DNA of 64,000 bases from Solobacterium sp. (lineage in GTDB: Bacteria > Bacillota_I > Bacilli_A > Erysipelotrichales > Erysipelotrichaceae), in the NCBI GenBank assembly GCA_017512725.1, contig JAFWEW010000035.1:1-64000 (forward strand). The letters run 5' to 3'. The stretch's first letter is position 1. Each line of letters begins with the position of its first letter. Below, piece by piece: positions 34,374 to 61,122 of the stretch. Both the position numbers and the translations under genes were made by a program. Under the pieces are notes generated by a model. That model made no database searches and had not been told where the DNA came from. It saw only the letters and a list, made by a program, of their open reading frames with translations.

Positions 34374-36851
34374 TCATTCGTTGAAGTATTCTGCAGCTTT
34401 GTCCTGAGACATCTCTGCATAGGTTTCTCCCGCAACTTCATAACCGATTGCGAAGATCCAGCTCGCCTTGCGGGCACCTTCTTCCGTATTCGGACAGGCT
34501 CTTAACTGTGCCGTTGTATTTGGATAATACAGCGGCATTTCATATTGAAGAAAATGAAGCTGCCCATCGAGCGTCGTATAATCGTAGCCGTTCTCTTCGC
34601 ACCAGGAGATGAGACTGTCTTTCCGCTCATTCCCCCACTGGCACAGCCCATAATAACCAATACCGTTATCCGCCGTCGGGCTGAAGCGGGATTCTCTGTG
34701 CATATTCGACAGAACACCGCAGGCCTGGGCGCGGTTGAGCCCCATTGCGGAAGTCAGGAAACTGTAGATCGTATCTTTTGCGCTGCCGCCGGAACTGACG
34801 GTTACAGGAGCGGGTGTCGGTTTGGACTTTACGGTCACTGCCGCAGTTTCTTCACTCTGGTTCCCTGCCTTGTCGATCGCCTTAATCAGAACGCTGTATT
34901 CACCCGGTTTCGTACTGTCGACATTGGATACCACGGTATACGATCCCGGCACAAGGGATTCCGTATACGGAAGATCCCCGTCAGTATCGTCCGTTACCGA
35001 TCCGATCAGGCTCCCGGCACTGAAGCTGTCTCCTTCTGAAAGAGAAACCGACATGGCGTTGAGCGTGATAACCGGCTTTTTGGAATCAGCGGCAGTTACC
35101 GCAGCAGGCGTTGCGGAAGGCTCGGGTGTCTTCACCGCCGGGCTTTCTTCCGGCGTCACGACAACCCGGAACTTCTTTACCGTTTCATTGCCGTTTTTAT
35201 CCGACGCAGTCACCGTAACCGTATAGGTGCCGGCCGTTTCGGCCGTAAAGTCTCCGGTATCTACGGTATACTTCAGCTTTCCGTCAACCGGATCTTCCGC
35301 AAGTTCCACATTGTCTTTCGGATCAAACGCTTCATTCAGCGACACGGTGACGTTTTCTTCCTTCAGCGTGATGATCGGCTCAATAGTGTCTTTTACTTCA
35401 AAGGTCTGTACGAAGTCCCGGCTGACGAGCGTACCATCTTCGGTCACGCCGCTTACGGTATATGTCACATCCTGAGTGCCGAGCTTTCGGGTATCTACCG
35501 AACCGCTGACTGTGAGTTCTCCCTCTGCGGATTCAACATAATCATTCGGATGAAAATCACCGCCGTATTCCACCGTCACGCCTTTTTTAAATTCAACCCT
35601 CAGGGTGCTGTACAGTTCCTCTGCCTCTTCCCTGCGGACTGTTGTGTGATAATGGCTGAATGCGATGACTGCGGCAATAATTGCGATCAGAAGAATCGCC
35701 GCAATGATCAGAACCGGAACGAGTTTGATTCTCCTTCGGGTCTTTTTTTCATATCCCGAAGAAACCGCAGGTTCCTCAACTTCCGTCAGTTCGGAAGTCT
35801 GTTTCAAAGACGCAAGGATCTTTTCCCCGGCATCACTGTATTCCGGTTCCGGCATTTTTTCTTCTGGTTCCGGTATTTCCTCTTCCGGTTCCGGCTGCGG
35901 GGGGTCTTCTTCAGGTTCCGGATCTTCCAGATGAATCTCCTCCGGATGTTCTACAAGCTGTTTCAGATCTGCCGGCAGCGGCGCGTCCGCTTCCAGTTCC
36001 GTTCGTTCAAACGGTGTCAGAAACAGTACCTTTGCGCAGTGCAGTGCCGGCCGTTTCATCAGCTTCATATCGCCGCCGTACAGTTCATCCCCAAGAAGCG
36101 GATGCCCGATCGACGCAAGATGGAAACGAATCTGATGGGTCCGTCCGGTTTCAATCTCAACTGCCAGCACGGAGATCGATTCTTCTCCGACATGGAACTC
36201 ATGCGTTACCTGATAGTAGGTAGATGCCGGTTTCCCGTCTTCTTCTCCGCTGACCCGCCGGCGCTGTCCCTCCACCTTTGCGATCGGAATGTCAATAATG
36301 CCGCGTTTTGCCTCGAGTACGCCCATGACAAACGCCGTGTAGTATTTCCGCAGCTTGCCGTCTTCCCGGTCTTTGGAAAGCCGGGATGCCGCGAGCCGGT
36401 TCTTCGCATAGATGATTGCGCCGCTGACATCCTTATCCAGCCTTCCGACCGGGCGGATCACAAAGTCATAGCCCTGTTTCCGGTAATAGGATGCCAGAAT
36501 CGTTCCCATGGAATCATTGATGTGATTGTGTACCGGATGACACGGGATGCCCGCCGGCTTGTTCACAATGACCATGTCTTCGTTTTCGTACAGAATCTCC
36601 GGCTCTGCTTCCAGAATCGGGATCCTGCCGGTTTCCGCTTCCGGAAATCTCAGAGTCAAGGTATCTCCGACCCGCATCCGGTCATTGACCCTGGTCCGTT
36701 CCCCGTTCAAAAGAATCTCACCGTCAAATTTCAGACGGGAGATTTCTTTGCGGGACAGATTCAGTTCCCGGGTCATGACTTCTTTAATATTGCCATTGCC
36801 GGTTACCGACCAGTCCTTCAGATTCATCTGGTAGGTAATTTCTTTTTCCAT
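34374..36851 (-). CDS. RluA-family pseudouridine synthase fused to TM, Ig-like repeats and lysozyme-like domain
   Basis: 825 residues in one open frame. Residues about 25-70 are an S4-like RNA-binding domain, and 85-280 an RluA catalytic domain (GRLDKDVSG with the catalytic D139; RTHQIRFHLASIGHPLLGD). An acidic Pro/Glu linker (301-340) leads to a basic anchor (KKTRRRIK) and a TM (376-398). Outside, there are Ig/HYR-like repeats (about 420-565 and 592-675), a Thr/Pro linker, and a phage-tail-lysozyme-like domain (690-825; HRES with E720, YYGLCQWGNERK). An internal ATG at codon 333 could give the membrane part alone. RNA modification and cell-wall cutting in one chain is unusual; the frame is intact. 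Confidence 0.75.
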   Translation of the reverse strand: MEKEITYQMNLKDWSVTGNGNIKEVMTRELNLSRKEISRLKFDGEILLNGERTRVNDRMRVGDTLTLRFPEAETGRIPILEAEPEILYENEDMVIVNKPAGIPCHPVHNHINDSMGTILASYYRKQGYDFVIRPVGRLDKDVSGAIIYAKNRLAASRLSKDREDGKLRKYYTAFVMGVLEAKRGIIDIPIAKVEGQRRRVSGEEDGKPASTYYQVTHEFHVGEESISVLAVEIETGRTHQIRFHLASIGHPLLGDELYGGDMKLMKRPALHCAKVLFLTPFERTELEADAPLPADLKQLVEHPEEIHLEDPEPEEDPPQPEPEEEIPEPEEKMPEPEYSDAGEKILASLKQTSELTEVEEPAVSSGYEKKTRRRIKLVPVLIIAAILLIAIIAAVIAFSHYHTTVRREEAEELYSTLRVEFKKGVTVEYGGDFHPNDYVESAEGELTVSGSVDTRKLGTQDVTYTVSGVTEDGTLVSRDFVQTFEVKDTIEPIITLKEENVTVSLNEAFDPKDNVELAEDPVDGKLKYTVDTGDFTAETAGTYTVTVTASDKNGNETVKKFRVVVTPEESPAVKTPEPSATPAAVTAADSKKPVITLNAMSVSLSEGDSFSAGSLIGSVTDDTDGDLPYTESLVPGSYTVVSNVDSTKPGEYSVLIKAIDKAGNQSEETAAVTVKSKPTPAPVTVSSGGSAKDTIYSFLTSAMGLNRAQACGVLSNMHRESRFSPTADNGIGYYGLCQWGNERKDSLISWCEENGYDYTTLDGQLHFLQYEMPLYYPNTTAQLRACPNTEEGARKASWIFAIGYEVAGETYAEMSQDKAAEYFNE

Positions 36852-36868: not shown

Positions 36869-37970
36869 TTATGAAATCTGAGAGCGGAGATAGCTGTAGA
36901 TAAAGTCATCCAGATCTCCATCCATGACTCCCTGAATATTGCCGACTTCGTGTCCGGTTCTGAGATCCTTGACCATGGTATACGGCTGGAAGACATACGA
37001 GCGGATCTGGGATCCCCATTCGTTCGCCTTGACTTCACCCTTGATCTCCGCCATCTTCTTTGCCTGTTCCTGGATCCGGATCTGAAGCAGTTTGCTCTTG
37101 AGCATGTTCAGGCACGCTTCACGGTTCTGAAGCTGGGAACGCTGTGTCTGACAGAAGACGGTAATGTTGAGCGGCTTATAAGTCATTCTTACCGCTGAGT
37201 CAGTTTTGTTGATGTGCTGTCCGCCGGCACCGGAAGAACGCATGGTGATCGTTTCAAGATCCTTTTCATCGATCTCGATATCCAGATCATCTTCAAACTC
37301 CGGCATAACTTCGACGCTTGCGAAGCTGGTATGACGACGGGCATTGGAATCAAACGGTGAGATGCGTACCAGACGGTGCACACCGTTTTCCGCTTTTAAG
37401 TATCCATATGCCATCGGGCCTTCGATCTGCAAACTGCAGGATTTCATGCCGGCTTCTTCACCGTCCTGATAATCCAGCACCGTAACCTTGAAGCCGCGGC
37501 GTTCCGCCCATCGGACATACATCCGGTACAGCATGCTTGCCCAGTCCATCGCTTCCGTTCCGCCGGCTCCCGGATGGATTTCCAGAATCGCCGCATGGTT
37601 GTCATACGGGCCGCTCAGGAGCACCTGAATTTCAAATGCGTCAAAGTCGGTCATGACCGTGCGGTATTCTTCTTCCACCAGCGATGCCAGATCTTCGTCA
37701 AATGAATTGTTCAGTTCATTGACCGATTCCGCAAGATCGCTGAGCGCTGTCTGCAGTTTCTCGTGGTTCTCAACGAGAGACTTCAGCGAGTTGTTGTTTC
37801 GAATAAGTGCCTGTGCCTTCTTCTGGTCGTTCCAGAAGTCCGGCGCATTCATCGCTTCTTCGTTTTCTCTGATTTGTTCTCTTTTGCCGTCCAGGTCAAA
37901 GAGAGGAGCCAAGCTGCTCCAATTTGGCCTGGCAGCGGGCAACGCCCTGTTTCATTTCATAAAGTTCCAT
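36869..37970 (-). CDS. prfB: Peptide chain release factor 2 with programmed +1 frameshift
   Basis: 366 residues: 24 codons from ATG 37970 (MELYEMKQGVARCQAKLEQLG...), then CTT TGA C at 37901-37895, where a +1 shift (the TGA spans 37898-37896) joins the main frame that ends at 36869. The main frame carries GGQ (RSSGAGGQHINKTDSAVR) and the SPF-type anticodon loop (RISPFDSNARRHTSFA). RF2 releases peptides at UGA/UAA and this UGA makes its own synthesis autoregulated. Unlike the classic site, I see no AGGGGG just upstream; GGAGC/GCTCC can form a small hairpin there. It follows secA by 14 bases. Confidence 0.95.
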
Positions 37971-54045: not shown

Positions 54046-54764
54046 CCGGTTTCCCTCAGTGCCTGAATCACGATCCGGCTGTCTGTCTTTTCCATATCAC
54101 AGGTCACCAGTGTCACAAGCCCTCCGCCTTCATACACTTCTCCTTCCCGGCGCTGATCCAGATACGGAATGGAAGCTTTGATCATCTGCACAACTTCTTC
54201 TGTGTTCCCGGCATTCGGATCTGCCCATCCGATCTCGGTTTCTTCTTCCAGGTCATAGGTCGCAGAGGAAATGATCCGGCACGGAATCAGACCTGCCTGC
54301 GATTCCAGCAGAAACGACGGATGGGTTTGAAAATAGTCTTTCTCCCGGAACTGTTTCAGAAAGGTAAAGCACCAGTCTTTTGTTTTTGAAGAGTGGCCGT
54401 AGATCACCAGATTGACCGGATCTGCCGCACAGGGATCACAGAATACCGTCCCCATGGTGTCATATTCTCCCCGTACATTGTGTTTCAGCGCATATGCCGC
54501 ATCCGGGGTGCAGATGACCGGAATTGCCCGGTACCTGTCCCCGTCTGTGAACCGCAGCACATATTTCACACGCGGATTAATCTTCTGCCACGCTTCCAGC
54601 GTCAGCGGTTCCTCTTCCTGTGTATGGACATATTCTTCTGCCATGGAAGAATTCGGATCCCGCAGCTGCGGCAGATCTGTCGGATACTTCACCAGTGCAG
54701 CCGAACCCGCAAGCGGGAACAGCGTCAGCAGCGCTTTAACCCAGGGACGCAGTTTCCGTTTCAT
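54042..54764 (-). CDS. srtB: Class B sortase
   Basis: 240 residues: N-terminal hydrophobic anchor (about 10-25), IYGHSSKTKDWCF with the catalytic His, TLVTCDMEK with the nucleophilic Cys, and DSRIVIQA with the Arg near the C-terminus. Class B sortases anchor proteins to peptidoglycan or pili. It starts inside the last codons of the 2128-residue surface protein, which is its likely client although no LPXTG-like sorting motif is visible in it. Confidence 0.88.
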   Translation of the reverse strand: MKRKLRPWVKALLTLFPLAGSAALVKYPTDLPQLRDPNSSMAEEYVHTQEEEPLTLEAWQKINPRVKYVLRFTDGDRYRAIPVICTPDAAYALKHNVRGEYDTMGTVFCDPCAADPVNLVIYGHSSKTKDWCFTFLKQFREKDYFQTHPSFLLESQAGLIPCRIISSATYDLEEETEIGWADPNAGNTEEVVQMIKASIPYLDQRREGEVYEGGGLVTLVTCDMEKTDSRIVIQALRETG

Positions 54765-57700
54765 AGCGTTCTCCTGTCCGGCGTGAGATCAGGATTTTCC
54801 GGATCTCTTTTCTCCGGGTCACAATCTTCGCATTGGTCCGGGTATTCGTTACCGTATCGACGGTATATTCCGCTTTCGGCATAATGACCGCACAGGCTTC
54901 TCCAATCAGATAGCCAAGCGGTGACCGGGTCTCACAGATCCGTACGGAATGTCCGTATTTTACCTCCGGCAGAAGAATCATTCCCTTTTCCACATGCGCC
55001 GGCGTAACAACATCTTCTTTGCTTACCAGATAGTCTCCTTCAGCCAGATCTGCAAATACGATTCTTCCGTCTTCCCCGGTATAGCCGTCCAGTACCACAC
55101 CGTTTTCTCCCGTTACTTTCACATACACACCGGGTGTCCCCACCGTTACCGTTTCCTGAGTAATCGCTTTCGTCAGGTACCAGGTACTGCCGCGGGAATC
55201 CCGAATCGTCATAGCAGTGATTGCTTCTCCTTCCTGTTCAACAGCGATTACTTCAAGCGTGTCTTCTTCCTGCCAGCCGGCAGTTCCGGGAATTGTTGAT
55301 GGAGTAATCCGGTATTCCTGTTCCTGGATCCGGATGATGGCCTGATTTTCTCCGTCGGCCCGGATCGTCCAGGTTTCACCGCCGTAGGACAGCGTCTCCT
55401 TCTGTTCTTCCAGCGCCTGATGTACCATCTGCCATCCCGGCATTTCCGCCGTCCGGCTTACCATTCGTCTGATTGTGTCGCCCGGAGTTGAAAGACCTGC
55501 CTCAAGGGCTTCTTCTAGGGTAATCGGAAGGCGGTTTTCTTCATGTGTACTTCGCATCAGAATTCCGCCGCTGATATATTCTCCCAGCATCTCTGTACCA
55601 TAGGTTTCATCACTCTGCACTGCCCGTACCGTAAAAACGGTCTTTGAACTGTCGTCAAGATCGATCAGCTGGCACTCTGTGATTTTCCGCTTATCGGATA
55701 GTTCTCCAAACACATCCGGTACGGTATCCTTTTTCACCGATATCACCTGATACTGGCGTACCACACTGACCGGTTCCTTTTCAATCTGTTCAAACACTGC
55801 ACCAGCCCTTGGGTTCTTGAGCGAACGGGTGATATCGGTATACTGCATCGGTGCCGTTACGCTGTATCCCTTTATCGGCACATGATAGCTTCCCTTAAAT
55901 GCACCGTCTTCCAGTCTGGAAAGGATCACTTCTTCGTTCAGTACTTTTTCAATCCGGTAAATGTACTTTTTCCCGGAGGTCTTTGTCGGCCATACCGATA
56001 CAATATCCCCCGCATCCGTATTCTCCGGAATATCTGCGATTGTGATCTTTTCCCGGTAAGAGGAACTCTGTTTTTCATCAATCACCGTCGCTTCGTCGGT
56101 CACATCTTCCGCTGTGAACCATGCGTTGTTCAGCGGGATCCGATGATCGTCCTGATCCACTTTGTACACCTTAACGGCTATCCGCCGCAGTCTGTTCTCC
56201 AGAGAAGCCTGTATGGTATTTGTCTTGGCGTCTGCGTTCATGGTGAAAGAATGCGTCACTTCTGCAGTGCCGTAATCATATCCATCCGGAAGCTCCACTT
56301 CACAGGCAAGATAGGTTCTTCCCCATTTCAGTCCGTTTACAGAAAGCTGTCCTTTCACATGTTCCGGACTGACGGTATCAAACTTCACCGGCTCCCCGGT
56401 TATCGGATCCCGGTACCAGTAGGTTCCCGGTTCCAGATCGGAAACATCGACAGTGCCATACGAATCACTGATCATTTCCTTTACTTTTCTGGTCATTGAC
56501 TCATCGGAACAAATGACTACCTGTTTCCCGGCTATCGGCATATTGTGATTGGTACTGTCCGCAATGCGGATGTACTGATGCCCGGTGATTCCTGCGAAAA
56601 CCGGCAGACCGACCAGTTCTCCTTCGGGCTCTGTCCGTGAAAACACGATCCGTTCTGCCCGGATGACATCTCCTTCTGCGTCTGTTGTCTCAAGTACTGC
56701 CGTTGCGTTGGCATCGGAAGAAAGGGTCCAGGTTCCATCAATCTGTTCCAGAGTGATATGCGGATTTTCATTCCGCAGACGATAACTCCATTCACCCGGT
56801 TTCAGATGAAGACTGTAAGTATTGCCGGTGCGGTAATAATGCAGGGTCTCTGTTTCGTAGGTATTGAGGTCCGGGAATTCTTCTGCTGTTTCAACGGTAT
56901 GACTGTTCTGCTTTTTGACTTTCAGAATCGTTCCGTGCGTATCGTCATGATCAATCGAAAGAATACGGTATTGTTCACCCTGAACTTCGATTACATCTCC
57001 AATGACCCATTCCGCCGGGGTATTCCGGAATGTTTCCAGATTAAACGGAGTTTCTTCACTCGCTTCTTCTGTGATCACAAATACTTCCCCGTCCGTATTG
57101 CGGACGACTGCTTCATCGTTTTTTACCGACTGAATCGCATAAAGCACATCATTGATTCTTACATGCATGCCGGCTTTCTTTTCACCATAGCGTGCAAGAT
57201 CCGCATCTTCATACTGCAGACCCTCCGGTTTATCCACTTCGACCCGGAAGGAAGGTTCCTGCTGCTCATACGGGTCATGACTGTTTGAATCGGTCACCTC
57301 CTGTACAATACATACCTCTGCTGTTTTCCCATCTCCGGACTGCAGCCGGATCATTTCATAGCCGGACGCCGATTCCCGGATCACCTCATAGGATGTACCG
57401 TCGATTTCAACGGGTCCGCTCGTCTGTGTCAGTTCTTCTGCGGAAAGCAGCGCATCCGGATTCCATGCATAGACCAGTTTTTTCTGATACTCACGACCAT
57501 TGCGCAGCGTCATGGTTCCCCGTCCGTCATCCTCATAGTCCGTATTTACAACGAGATAGCGAATCCCGTCTTTTTCAAAAACATCTCCGCTGCTCAGCGT
57601 ATTGTCATACATTACCGAGAACGTATCACCAGGTTTATACACCGAACCCCGTTCGGTTTCCTGATCTACAACGGTATGCCAGGTGACCGGCATCACGCTT

Positions 57701-60700
57701 CTTACGGTTTCCGGAGTCACTTCATAGCGGCCGCGGAAGGATTCCACGACAGCTTTTTGATTAATCTGGTCTGCATAAAGAACGGTATACTCCACACCAT
57801 TGACATCGGTAAACCGGCTTCCCGCTCCTGCGTTATCCGGCAGGTTCTCCCAGCTGAGATCTCCCTGTGTTCCTTCCTCTGCATAGGCATAAAGATGAAG
57901 CGAAGCCTTTTCACTCAGACTGTTCTTTGGAACCTGGATCGTCTGCCAGTCCACGTCGATCTGTTTTTCATCCCGTTCTTCCACCGTAAAGGTCACCGGA
58001 ATCTTTGAGGTATGAAACGCCTTTTCCGTATGCCCTCCATCGGTTACTTCCGCAAGATATTCCATTCCGTTTACACCAAACGAAAGGATCAGAGACACTT
58101 CGTCAGCTTCCTTTACCCGGTAAACCGTTCCATCTTTTTGAATCTCTTTTCCGGCCTCCCGGTCTGCCGCATCGATCTCTTCGTACTGCGGGCCGGCATA
58201 GCTGACGGAATCTACTTTTGCCAGTTCTTTCTGACGGGTCAGTCCAACCGGGCAGCCTTTCGGATCATATGGATCCAGGCATGCGCCTCCTTCTGTTTCT
58301 TCCCCGCCGATCAGTTCCTGATAACTCAGATCGCTGCTCAGTCCGTCGTAAGGCCGGTTGTTCTCATCTTCTTCGGAAGCTCGGCGGATCACTTCCGTTG
58401 TCCGGTCCGTGATCCGGTATCGGTTCCCTCTGCTGTCACTGACGATATATACCGGATTCTGAACCGCAGTCACAATGAACTGCTCTTCTTTTGACACGGT
58501 TTCCGGAATGTCTTCATAGGAGATCCACTCCGGTGCCGTTATTATCATTTCATTGCCGTCCGCTTCCACCTTCATGGCATACGGACCGTTCTGCAGTACG
58601 GTGAATTTCATTTCCCGCATCTGATAAAAACTGCCGTCTTCGGAATACGGATAGCTCAGTACAAACTGATCGCCCGGCATCAGGTTCCTGGCATCCGGAA
58701 TATCGCTCCATTCCGGACGGGGATCCTGCAGACTGATCGTGTATTCCCGGTCCGGGCTTGCGATCAGACTTTTCGCATTAACGGATTTGAGCGTATAGAC
58801 CGTGCGTCCAACTTCAAGACGGTTCCCCCGCTGCAGCGGAACGTTCTGTTCTCGCGAAGCTGCTTCAAATGCCGCAAAATCCGGTTCACTGGTTTCATTG
58901 ACCAGAATGTTGGCTTTCTGTTCCGTTTCGCTTACGAAAACCGTCACAAAACCGCCGTCCGCCATAATATCCCTAATCACAGCCTTCCGCACACAGGCGC
59001 TGTCATCTTCCGGATCAAAGGTTCCATGCATGGAACGGACTTCTCTTACCTCGATCTCATCTCCGATCTTCGGAGCTTCCGTCAGCTGATATCTGGAGAA
59101 ACAGTTCGTATCAGCCGGCTGGTATTCACTGGCTTTCACCGCATTCAGGATGTACTGACTGTCTGTTATCTCCCGGATCTCATACAGGAACCCGTTGAAG
59201 ACGAAGCTGTCACCAGTCTTCAGATCACTCCGTTCCTTCAGCTGCCGGTACGTAATTGCCGGTGTCCTCGTTCGCCCGAGATTGACTTCGGTTCCATAGT
59301 CCGTCGGATCTTTCGAAAGATCGAGATCACCGGTCTCATAGAATACAAACTTCGCACCGTTGATCTTGGTTACCGGATCTTCTTCATCCTGTTTCGTCAG
59401 TTCAAGCGTTATATCACGGAGCCGGTTCACAAACGAGTAAACTGCCGAGGCACCGGTCGATGTTGTTTCGACGGACCATGGACGGTCGTCCGTATCAAAT
59501 GGATCCGCACCTTTCACTTCCCGAATCCACCATTTCTTCCCCTGCGGGAGGAATCCGTTGATCCGCAGGGTCCCGTCCGGATCAACCGGAAATCTTCGGA
59601 TCGCAGAACCGTCTTCTGTCAGGATCGGATAATACATGCGGGTCGTGTTATCGATATTTGAATTGCCGTCTTCGTCGTTGCGTGTGATGCGGTCCGGATC
59701 GTGGTATTCCGTCCAGTTCATATCATTCCCGCCGGTTTTCTGATACTGCGTTTCCGGGTCTTCATACCAGCCGACACAAAACTCTGTTCCGACCGCAAAG
59801 CTTCCCCGGGTATGGTACTCATCCAGTTTGCGCACGACCACTGCACTGGTACGCAGTTTAAATGACAGCTGATACTGCGGCGTCGGATCACTCCCGGTCG
59901 CAGCCATCAGTTTCTGCTGGTCCCCGGCTTCATACAGCAGAACCCCATTCAGCATGTTTTCCCACTGATCGGCTTTCCGTTTGAATGTCAGGACCTTCCC
60001 GCCTGAGATATTCCAGCCGTCGTAATACAGATCGTCAATATCGATCAGCAGCTTGTTATCCTCCACCCGCAGATGCATTCCTTTGTGTTCTTCTTCGCTG
60101 TAGTCATTGAACCAGGAAAGCACATTTTTCGTGTCGGTCAGCGTCAGTGTAGTTCCCCAGTCGACATAATTAAAACGGGGTCTGTGATACGAATCCGAAA
60201 AACTCGGAACCGTATCATAGTTTTCCACAAGAAACGTGATCTGGTTCATGAGGCTCTCAACCGGAGCCTTGCTGTTGTAACAGGCTTTGTAATCAAAATG
60301 CGGTGCAGGGCACATATGCAGGGAATTACTGATTGTTTCATAGTATTCCGGTGCAACGATCTGCCAGATCAGCAGCTGGGTCGCAACATACGCTTCTTTT
60401 GAGGTTCCGATTGACGGGAACCCATACCCGAAATAAGAAATCCGTTTCAGAAGATTTCTTGTATCCTCATCCAGGCTTTCCCAGGTACGGCCGCTGTAAT
60501 CTGCGCCATAGCCGTTTACCAGCGATACCTGTACCGTCGGCTCCACGCAGTAGCACACTTTATCGCCCAGAAAAAACAGGGAAATGTACTCATACTGCCC
60601 CGGGCTGATGACCGAATCAAACTGTGCAACCCGTCCTTTCGAGATCAGCTGTCCGGCATCGGTCTGGATGATTCCGCCCCGCCGGTTTCCGGCTGATGTA

Positions 60701-61122
60701 TCGAACGGACTGCTGTTCATGAGTCTTGCGGCCGCATGCGGCAGGGTCTCATGCAGGTCGATCACATCGTCTCCCCCGGTTCCTTCCACGGTTTCGCTCT
60801 CGGTAATCTCCGGTTCTTCCGGCGTTTCTTCTTCCGGAACATCCGGCGTCGGCTCTGGTGTTTCTGCTTCCGCAGAATCACTCTCTGGCGTTGGAGCTGG
60901 CTCTTCGGAAGACTCTGCCGACGAAGGCTCTTCGGTTGAAACGGGATCTTCCGGATTGGATGATTCTTCCGGTTCTTCGGGTACCTGTTCCTCCTTTTCT
61001 TCCTCCGCCGCAGCAGGCTGTGAAATTTCCGGCGGCAGCGGAGTCTCTTCGCCGGAAATGGGCACACTGAACAGACTGAAGACTGTCAGGAATGCCAGTA
61101 ATACGTTCTTGCATTTCAACAT
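54736..61122 (-). CDS. Giant thioester-domain surface adhesin
   Basis: 2128 residues. Signal peptide (residues 1-25), a Pro/Glu/Ser-rich stalk (26-115), then a thioester domain (about 150-330) with YCVEP (C192) and ATQLLIW (Q249), the pair expected to form the Cys-Gln thioester bond. A Cna_B-like module (starting ELTKQDEEDPVTKINGAKFVFYETGD) is followed by a long array of about ten short beta-repeats, each with a GDxFxxxGxxYxVxxxxxxx pattern. Two further Cna_B-like segments precede the C-terminus, which ends basic (VTRRKEIRKILISRRTGERYETETASLG) with no LPXTG, TM or charged-tail combination. The end overlaps the sortase start by 29 bases. It may attach covalently to host proteins. Confidence 0.82.
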   Translation of the reverse strand: MLKCKNVLLAFLTVFSLFSVPISGEETPLPPEISQPAAAEEEKEEQVPEEPEESSNPEDPVSTEEPSSAESSEEPAPTPESDSAEAETPEPTPDVPEEETPEEPEITESETVEGTGGDDVIDLHETLPHAAARLMNSSPFDTSAGNRRGGIIQTDAGQLISKGRVAQFDSVISPGQYEYISLFFLGDKVCYCVEPTVQVSLVNGYGADYSGRTWESLDEDTRNLLKRISYFGYGFPSIGTSKEAYVATQLLIWQIVAPEYYETISNSLHMCPAPHFDYKACYNSKAPVESLMNQITFLVENYDTVPSFSDSYHRPRFNYVDWGTTLTLTDTKNVLSWFNDYSEEEHKGMHLRVEDNKLLIDIDDLYYDGWNISGGKVLTFKRKADQWENMLNGVLLYEAGDQQKLMAATGSDPTPQYQLSFKLRTSAVVVRKLDEYHTRGSFAVGTEFCVGWYEDPETQYQKTGGNDMNWTEYHDPDRITRNDEDGNSNIDNTTRMYYPILTEDGSAIRRFPVDPDGTLRINGFLPQGKKWWIREVKGADPFDTDDRPWSVETTSTGASAVYSFVNRLRDITLELTKQDEEDPVTKINGAKFVFYETGDLDLSKDPTDYGTEVNLGRTRTPAITYRQLKERSDLKTGDSFVFNGFLYEIREITDSQYILNAVKASEYQPADTNCFSRYQLTEAPKIGDEIEVREVRSMHGTFDPEDDSACVRKAVIRDIMADGGFVTVFVSETEQKANILVNETSEPDFAAFEAASREQNVPLQRGNRLEVGRTVYTLKSVNAKSLIASPDREYTISLQDPRPEWSDIPDARNLMPGDQFVLSYPYSEDGSFYQMREMKFTVLQNGPYAMKVEADGNEMIITAPEWISYEDIPETVSKEEQFIVTAVQNPVYIVSDSRGNRYRITDRTTEVIRRASEEDENNRPYDGLSSDLSYQELIGGEETEGGACLDPYDPKGCPVGLTRQKELAKVDSVSYAGPQYEEIDAADREAGKEIQKDGTVYRVKEADEVSLILSFGVNGMEYLAEVTDGGHTEKAFHTSKIPVTFTVEERDEKQIDVDWQTIQVPKNSLSEKASLHLYAYAEEGTQGDLSWENLPDNAGAGSRFTDVNGVEYTVLYADQINQKAVVESFRGRYEVTPETVRSVMPVTWHTVVDQETERGSVYKPGDTFSVMYDNTLSSGDVFEKDGIRYLVVNTDYEDDGRGTMTLRNGREYQKKLVYAWNPDALLSAEELTQTSGPVEIDGTSYEVIRESASGYEMIRLQSGDGKTAEVCIVQEVTDSNSHDPYEQQEPSFRVEVDKPEGLQYEDADLARYGEKKAGMHVRINDVLYAIQSVKNDEAVVRNTDGEVFVITEEASEETPFNLETFRNTPAEWVIGDVIEVQGEQYRILSIDHDDTHGTILKVKKQNSHTVETAEEFPDLNTYETETLHYYRTGNTYSLHLKPGEWSYRLRNENPHITLEQIDGTWTLSSDANATAVLETTDAEGDVIRAERIVFSRTEPEGELVGLPVFAGITGHQYIRIADSTNHNMPIAGKQVVICSDESMTRKVKEMISDSYGTVDVSDLEPGTYWYRDPITGEPVKFDTVSPEHVKGQLSVNGLKWGRTYLACEVELPDGYDYGTAEVTHSFTMNADAKTNTIQASLENRLRRIAVKVYKVDQDDHRIPLNNAWFTAEDVTDEATVIDEKQSSSYREKITIADIPENTDAGDIVSVWPTKTSGKKYIYRIEKVLNEEVILSRLEDGAFKGSYHVPIKGYSVTAPMQYTDITRSLKNPRAGAVFEQIEKEPVSVVRQYQVISVKKDTVPDVFGELSDKRKITECQLIDLDDSSKTVFTVRAVQSDETYGTEMLGEYISGGILMRSTHEENRLPITLEEALEAGLSTPGDTIRRMVSRTAEMPGWQMVHQALEEQKETLSYGGETWTIRADGENQAIIRIQEQEYRITPSTIPGTAGWQEEDTLEVIAVEQEGEAITAMTIRDSRGSTWYLTKAITQETVTVGTPGVYVKVTGENGVVLDGYTGEDGRIVFADLAEGDYLVSKEDVVTPAHVEKGMILLPEVKYGHSVRICETRSPLGYLIGEACAVIMPKAEYTVDTVTNTRTNAKIVTRRKEIRKILISRRTGERYETETASLG

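Follow-up and report, generated by a model that had tools for sequence, protein, structure and literature searches.

A pseudouridine synthase and a membrane-anchored phage-type lysozyme domain encoded in one reading frame in Solobacterium and its relatives

A single gene of Solobacterium sp. was found to encode an RluA-family pseudouridine synthase, a transmembrane helix, Ig-like domains and a phage-type lysozyme domain, and, of the 70 species genomes in the genus, 20 contained the same fusion. The gene lies in the first 64,000 nucleotides of contig JAFWEW010000035.1 (the window). Its product is probably a bifunctional membrane protein of type II, the outcome of a gene fusion, with both enzymes likely to be active, each on its own side of the membrane.

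Architecture of the fused gene

An earlier note on this DNA had described a pseudouridine synthase at 34374-36851 that was continuous with a membrane segment, Ig-like repeats and a peptidoglycan-hydrolase-like domain. Matches to Pfam and NCBIfam families, the transmembrane segment and an AlphaFold2 model all bore this architecture out, but the strand had to be corrected: the 825 codons are read without a stop on the minus strand, from 36851 down to 34374. The features of the gene are as follows.

34374-36851, minus strand: whole fused gene, 825 aa, from ATG (36851-36849) to TGA (34376-34374)
35946-36851, minus strand: RluA-family pseudouridine synthase domain, residues 1-302 (TIGR00005, PF00849, 1v9f and 2ist matches)
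35718-35945, minus strand: acidic, proline-rich, disordered linker, predicted cytosolic, residues 303-378 (pLDDT below 50)
35658-35714, minus strand: transmembrane helix, residues 380-398 (hydrophobicity; helix 379-416 in the model)
35391-35597, minus strand: Ig-like domain 1, residues 419-487 (PF16403/PF07523; model)
35154-35375, minus strand: Ig-like domain 2, residues 493-566 (PF19077; model)
34827-35072, minus strand: Ig-like domain 3, residues 594-675 (PF18981/PF15418; model)
34380-34781, minus strand: Phage_lysozyme2 domain of the phi29 gp13 type, residues 691-824 (PF18013 and 3csr matches)

The protein has a single strongly hydrophobic segment, residues 380-398, with a mean Kyte-Doolittle value of 3.42. 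It is preceded by the sequence RRRIK, and the charge is +6/-1 in the 15 residues on its N-terminal side versus +2/-4 after it. Because the basic residues are on the N-terminal side, the positive-inside rule predicts an N-in/C-out orientation, which fits a single-pass type II protein. Ig-like families were matched by hmmscan against Pfam over residues 423-675, the best being Bact_surface_Ig-like (E 4e-13).

The AlphaFold2 model (mean pLDDT 82, built with 23 aligned sequences) contained a confident RluA fold and a disordered linker, followed by a helix spanning 379-416, the three Ig domains and a lysozyme domain made up of helices, and its Foldseek matches were, in order, RluD, RluA, RluC and then Ig/cadherin-type domains. 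The linker had a pLDDT below 50 over most of residues 312-379, and residues 341-350 formed a short helix. The sequence of this helix, AGEKILASL (35802-35831 of the window, minus strand), follows a motif, AGxxILAxL, that was repeated in the linkers of G000, G010, G028, G001, G007 and G068, while the rest of the linker was variable.

The two enzyme domains

The synthase domain matched PseudoU_synth_2 (PF00849) at residues 92-247 with an E value of 8e-31 (107.8 bits against a cut-off of 26.8) and the NCBIfam model TIGR00005 rluA at residues 21-301 with an E value of 9e-63 (212.3 bits against 192.7). By sequence, the closest solved structure for the N-terminal part was E. coli RluD (1v9f, E 8e-33), and by Foldseek the RluA domain matched 2ist (E 2e-20). 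The score against the RluD equivalog model for 23S positions 1911/1915/1917 (NF008385) was 123.7 bits, below the cut-off of 351, and the RluC and RluA equivalog cut-offs were likewise not reached. The RNA target would be rRNA or tRNA, and the scores below the three equivalog cut-offs do not assign it to a site of RluD, RluC or RluA.

The catalytic aspartate, D139 (codon at 36435-36437), is in the motif GRLDKDVSG, and this motif and KYYTA, GRTHQIR and GDELYGG were all intact in the window protein. At the prfB locus, no fused copy lacked D139; in G008 and G071, phenylalanine replaces the conserved tyrosine of KxYxA. Five other PF00849 proteins are encoded in the genome that contains the window gene, and these would make membrane tethering of the fused synthase tolerable.

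The C-terminal domain matched Phage_lysozyme2 (PF18013) at residues 693-824 with an E value of 8e-25 (88.2 bits against a gathering cut-off of 28.2), and its closest solved structure was phi29 gp13 (3csr, E 6e-4), in which E45 was aligned to E720 of the fused protein. E720 is in the sequence MHRES, at 34692-34694. This glutamate was kept in all of the fused copies that have the domain, including G093 and G080, which were checked by eye. No second PF18013 gene was found in the window genome.

Conservation of the fusion and its locus

The fusion was located by a 60-genome search, a genus-wide search and DNA patterns in named genomes; in the 20 species the lysozyme domain was in an open frame of at least 770 aa that also contained RluA. 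All 20 fusions were at the same locus, secA-prfB-[fusion], directly 3' of prfB. The carriers identified by the DNA-pattern search of named genomes were MAGs labelled 'Solobacterium sp.' or Erysipelotrichaceae, and most of them came from the ruminant gut. In PrfB+SecA trees the fused species were in one clade, which also contained the non-fused G018, G019, G020 and G064; support for the clade was 1.0 in FastTree. Ultrafast bootstrap values at the split were 93 on one side and 100 on the other, and those at the deep nodes were 59-88.

Pairwise NG86 omega values were 0.03-0.14 for the RluA domain, 0.03-0.09 for the lysozyme domain and 0.15-0.58 for the linker. The lysozyme values include only pairs for which the domain split was clean; the Ig and lysozyme values for G072/G089 were dropped, as the lysozyme boundary there was mis-set. 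These values indicate that both enzyme domains are under strong purifying selection. The linker varied from 29 to 101 aa among the 20 species, its gaps were always multiples of three, and the alternative frames over it were open in only 2 of 42 cases. Identity among the fusion species was as low as approximately 40%, and the persistence of the fusion over such a large divergence may point to a greater importance of the physical link than our preferred explanation allows. Against that explanation, the linker may also be cut by proteases.

Outside the genus, no fusion was found in the 23 other genomes with PF18013 among 395 genomes of the class, as judged by match to the RluA of the window. Among 54 genome-contig loci the fusion was found nowhere besides the genus clade and L115, a Bacteroidales MAG (RUG14395) in which RluA is joined to part of a lysozyme of the type found in this genus (L115:3434-4204). 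This joint is at the very end of its contig, with the two parts joined over a shared NPDG/YYG-like stretch, and was read as a probable assembly chimera. In two Clostridia, G469 (L109:1903-4127) and G476 (L196:4887-8058), rluA is either immediately upstream of a gene for a secreted Phage_lysozyme2 protein, which it overlaps by 4 nt, or 160 nt from such a gene. A further conserved large gene of surface type follows at both loci, and rluA is absent there in the relatives G470, G472 and G474. This adjacency appears to be a parallel neighborhood, with too few cases to build on.

The conserved gene order comFA-comFC-secA-prfB-rluA includes the fused locus, and the upstream neighbor in the window is as follows.

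36869-37970, minus strand: prfB (RF2), directly upstream of the fusion with a gap of 17 nt, ATG at 37970

A Shine-Dalgarno sequence was present before the prfB ATG but not clearly before the start of the fused gene, and no minus-strand promoter-like site was found inside the fused gene. At 37895-37970 prfB also contains CTT TGA C, the classic site of programmed +1 frameshifting in RF2 genes (37901-37895, codon 25 being TGA), and ORF callers place the prfB start too late. Elsewhere in the window, 54736-61122 on the minus strand encodes a 2128-aa adhesin-like surface protein that contains domains of the thioester (TED) and SpaA types.

Relatives with separate halves

The earlier note had asked whether the fusion is conserved in relatives and had taken separate genes there as evidence against it. 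Both states were found: the fusion stands in the 20 species, but some relatives have the halves apart. In non-fused species of the genus, rluA encodes approximately 290-350 aa and is mostly at the same place. In G064 (L099/L140), rluA and a gene for the TM-lysozyme part are two genes at this locus with an overlap of 8 nt, and the start of the lysozyme gene is preceded by a Shine-Dalgarno sequence (AAGGAG...ATGAGTGA). G019, G020, G006 and G065 have a free-standing TM-Ig-lysozyme gene of approximately 500 aa away from rluA. In G018 rluA ends at 307 aa, no lysozyme gene was found, and the locus contained no remnant of the other parts. At other loci, species outside the clade have TM-Ig-lysozyme genes that are separate and mostly shorter.

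Because the halves occur apart in relatives, fusion of neighboring genes would be the simplest origin. The ancestral state may have been the fused gene, or it may have been two overlapping genes that were fused more than once; with a support of 59-88 at the deep nodes, G064 may be either ancestral or a later split. The natural split versions in G064, G019, G020 and G018 are ready-made controls for the fused protein.

A further arrangement was found in G003, which has a second copy (L061:6095-8401, minus strand; 768 aa) with the RluA-TM-Ig layout but without a lysozyme domain. Its RluA fold is kept, RLD is changed to SLG, the linker is long and helical-looking, and the gene adjoins comFC. No second copy of this type was found in the other species searched.

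Proposed mechanism and alternatives

In the mechanism that we propose, the RluA-type synthase would fold in the cytosol and modify rRNA or tRNA there, anchored by the flexible acidic linker and the single TM helix. The three Ig-like domains would carry the gp13-type lysozyme out to the wall, where it would cleave the cell's own peptidoglycan in its glycan strands. Most likely, a TM-Ig-lysozyme gene, of the kind that encodes a free-standing type II membrane protein elsewhere in the genus, came to lie directly 3' of rluA (prfB-rluA-lys, an order in which G064 still has two overlapping genes), and the two frames would then have been joined. The likely gain would be a constant ratio of the two enzymes, expressed together from the secA-prfB operon, and membrane tethering of the synthase, more than a signal from one enzyme to the other; most likely, dose and location are coupled rather than chemistry.

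Four other explanations were weighed against this one. An assembly chimera or a missed frameshift joining two genes has a negligible probability. Such chimeras do occur, as the Bacteroidales joint shows for RluA and this very lysozyme, and the earlier note had proposed looking for an indel at the junction in read data. However, the same junction, synteny and reading frame were found in the 20 species from independent MAG assemblies, with in-frame indels only. An artefact is excluded because the linker gaps are in threes, the other frames are nearly always closed and the fusion is conserved, and a check of reads over the junction is unneeded because of this conservation across independent assemblies. 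It is doubtful that one mRNA yields two proteins, that is, a full-length or N-terminal product and a short TM-Ig-lysozyme product that would come from an internal start or from cleavage in the linker. The G064 lysozyme does have a start of its own, which overlaps the stop of rluA, the free-standing proteins of relatives start shortly ahead of the TM, and words resembling a Shine-Dalgarno sequence precede in-frame starts in G013 (ATG319), G080 (TTG343) and G093 (ATG355). The ATG at codon 333 (35853-35855), which the earlier note had put forward as the second start, is not favored because it is not conserved and lacks a Shine-Dalgarno sequence; G028, whose protein is 75% identical, has no counterpart and no ATG in its linker. 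Candidate starts vary in place and codon between species. Since no clear Shine-Dalgarno sequence precedes the start of the fused gene either, this test is weak, and the unbroken frame is the stronger argument: were a separate start sufficient, frameshifts or stops would be expected in the linker, and there were none in the 20 species.

The other two alternatives concern what the synthase domain does. That it has no enzymatic role and is a mere cytosolic anchor of the wall hydrolase seems very improbable. The loss of the catalytic aspartate from the second G003 copy and the presence of other RluA paralogs in the genome would agree with an anchor, but the catalytic motifs of the window protein are intact, D139 is universal among the fused copies at the prfB locus, and omega is low (0.03-0.14) over the RluA domain. 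A functional coupling, in which the RluA domain would dock on pre-50S particles or on ribosomes at the membrane and thereby place wall cutting at sites of active translation and export, or time it with them, and link modification to hydrolysis, is unlikely. Retention of the fusion in 20 species is consistent with it, as are the position next to secA and prfB, the occurrence of RluD in a pre-50S particle and of proteins like RluA in assembly intermediates of the mitoribosome (7bl5 and 6yxx matches), and the second G003 copy, which keeps RluA fold, TM and Ig domains despite the SLG change and the missing lysozyme. Against it, G064, G019, G020, G006 and G018 manage without the link, the linker is fast-evolving and disordered and would be poor at passing a signal, and the inactive copy was seen in a single genome. 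In a more specific and rather improbable form, the RluA domain would be a module that binds ribosomes or pre-50S particles at the membrane, tying the state of ribosome assembly or of translation to the place or time of wall cutting, and the G003 copy without the aspartate would be a pure docking version. We retain the bifunctional membrane protein, with its enzymes presumably working without cross-talk, as the preferred explanation.

Relation to known systems

In kinases of the PknB/StkP type, a cytosolic enzyme is joined through a TM to extracellular wall-binding modules, and signaling is established. The layout of the fused protein is alike, but its outside part is itself an enzyme and the evidence for signaling is confined to the kinases. 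The synthase half has the same N-terminal and catalytic domains, motifs and aspartate as the RluA/RluD family (TIGR00005, PF00849), whose members are soluble, whereas the fusion adds a linker, a TM and predicted extracellular domains. The lysozyme half is in the same sequence family as Phage_lysozyme2/phi29 gp13, with the same catalytic glutamate; unlike gp13, it is chromosomal, membrane-anchored, carried on an Ig stalk and joined to an RNA-modifying enzyme. The free-standing TM-Ig-Phage_lysozyme2 proteins of the genus (G019, G020, G006, G061, G075 and others) are homologous over the TM-Ig-lysozyme part, but have no synthase and are at another locus. Known RluA fusions combine two domains that act on RNA; one of them, TrcP of Vibrio cholerae, contains a deaminase domain and an RluA-type synthase, both cytosolic and acting on the same tRNA base (PMC9553926). 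An RluA-type domain is joined to a second domain in both TrcP and the fused protein, but the second enzyme of the latter would be outside the membrane and act on another polymer. The earlier note knew of no described example, and in the full-text literature searched we likewise found no description of an RluA-lysozyme fusion; the families are known and the domain architecture is new.

In this conserved chain, an enzyme that modifies RNA is joined to one that hydrolyzes the wall, and the two are predicted to lie on either side of a single membrane. Many species may tolerate a membrane-tethered modifier of rRNA or tRNA, or they may benefit from the link. In the latter case, ribosome maturation and growth of the wall would be bridged directly and physically.
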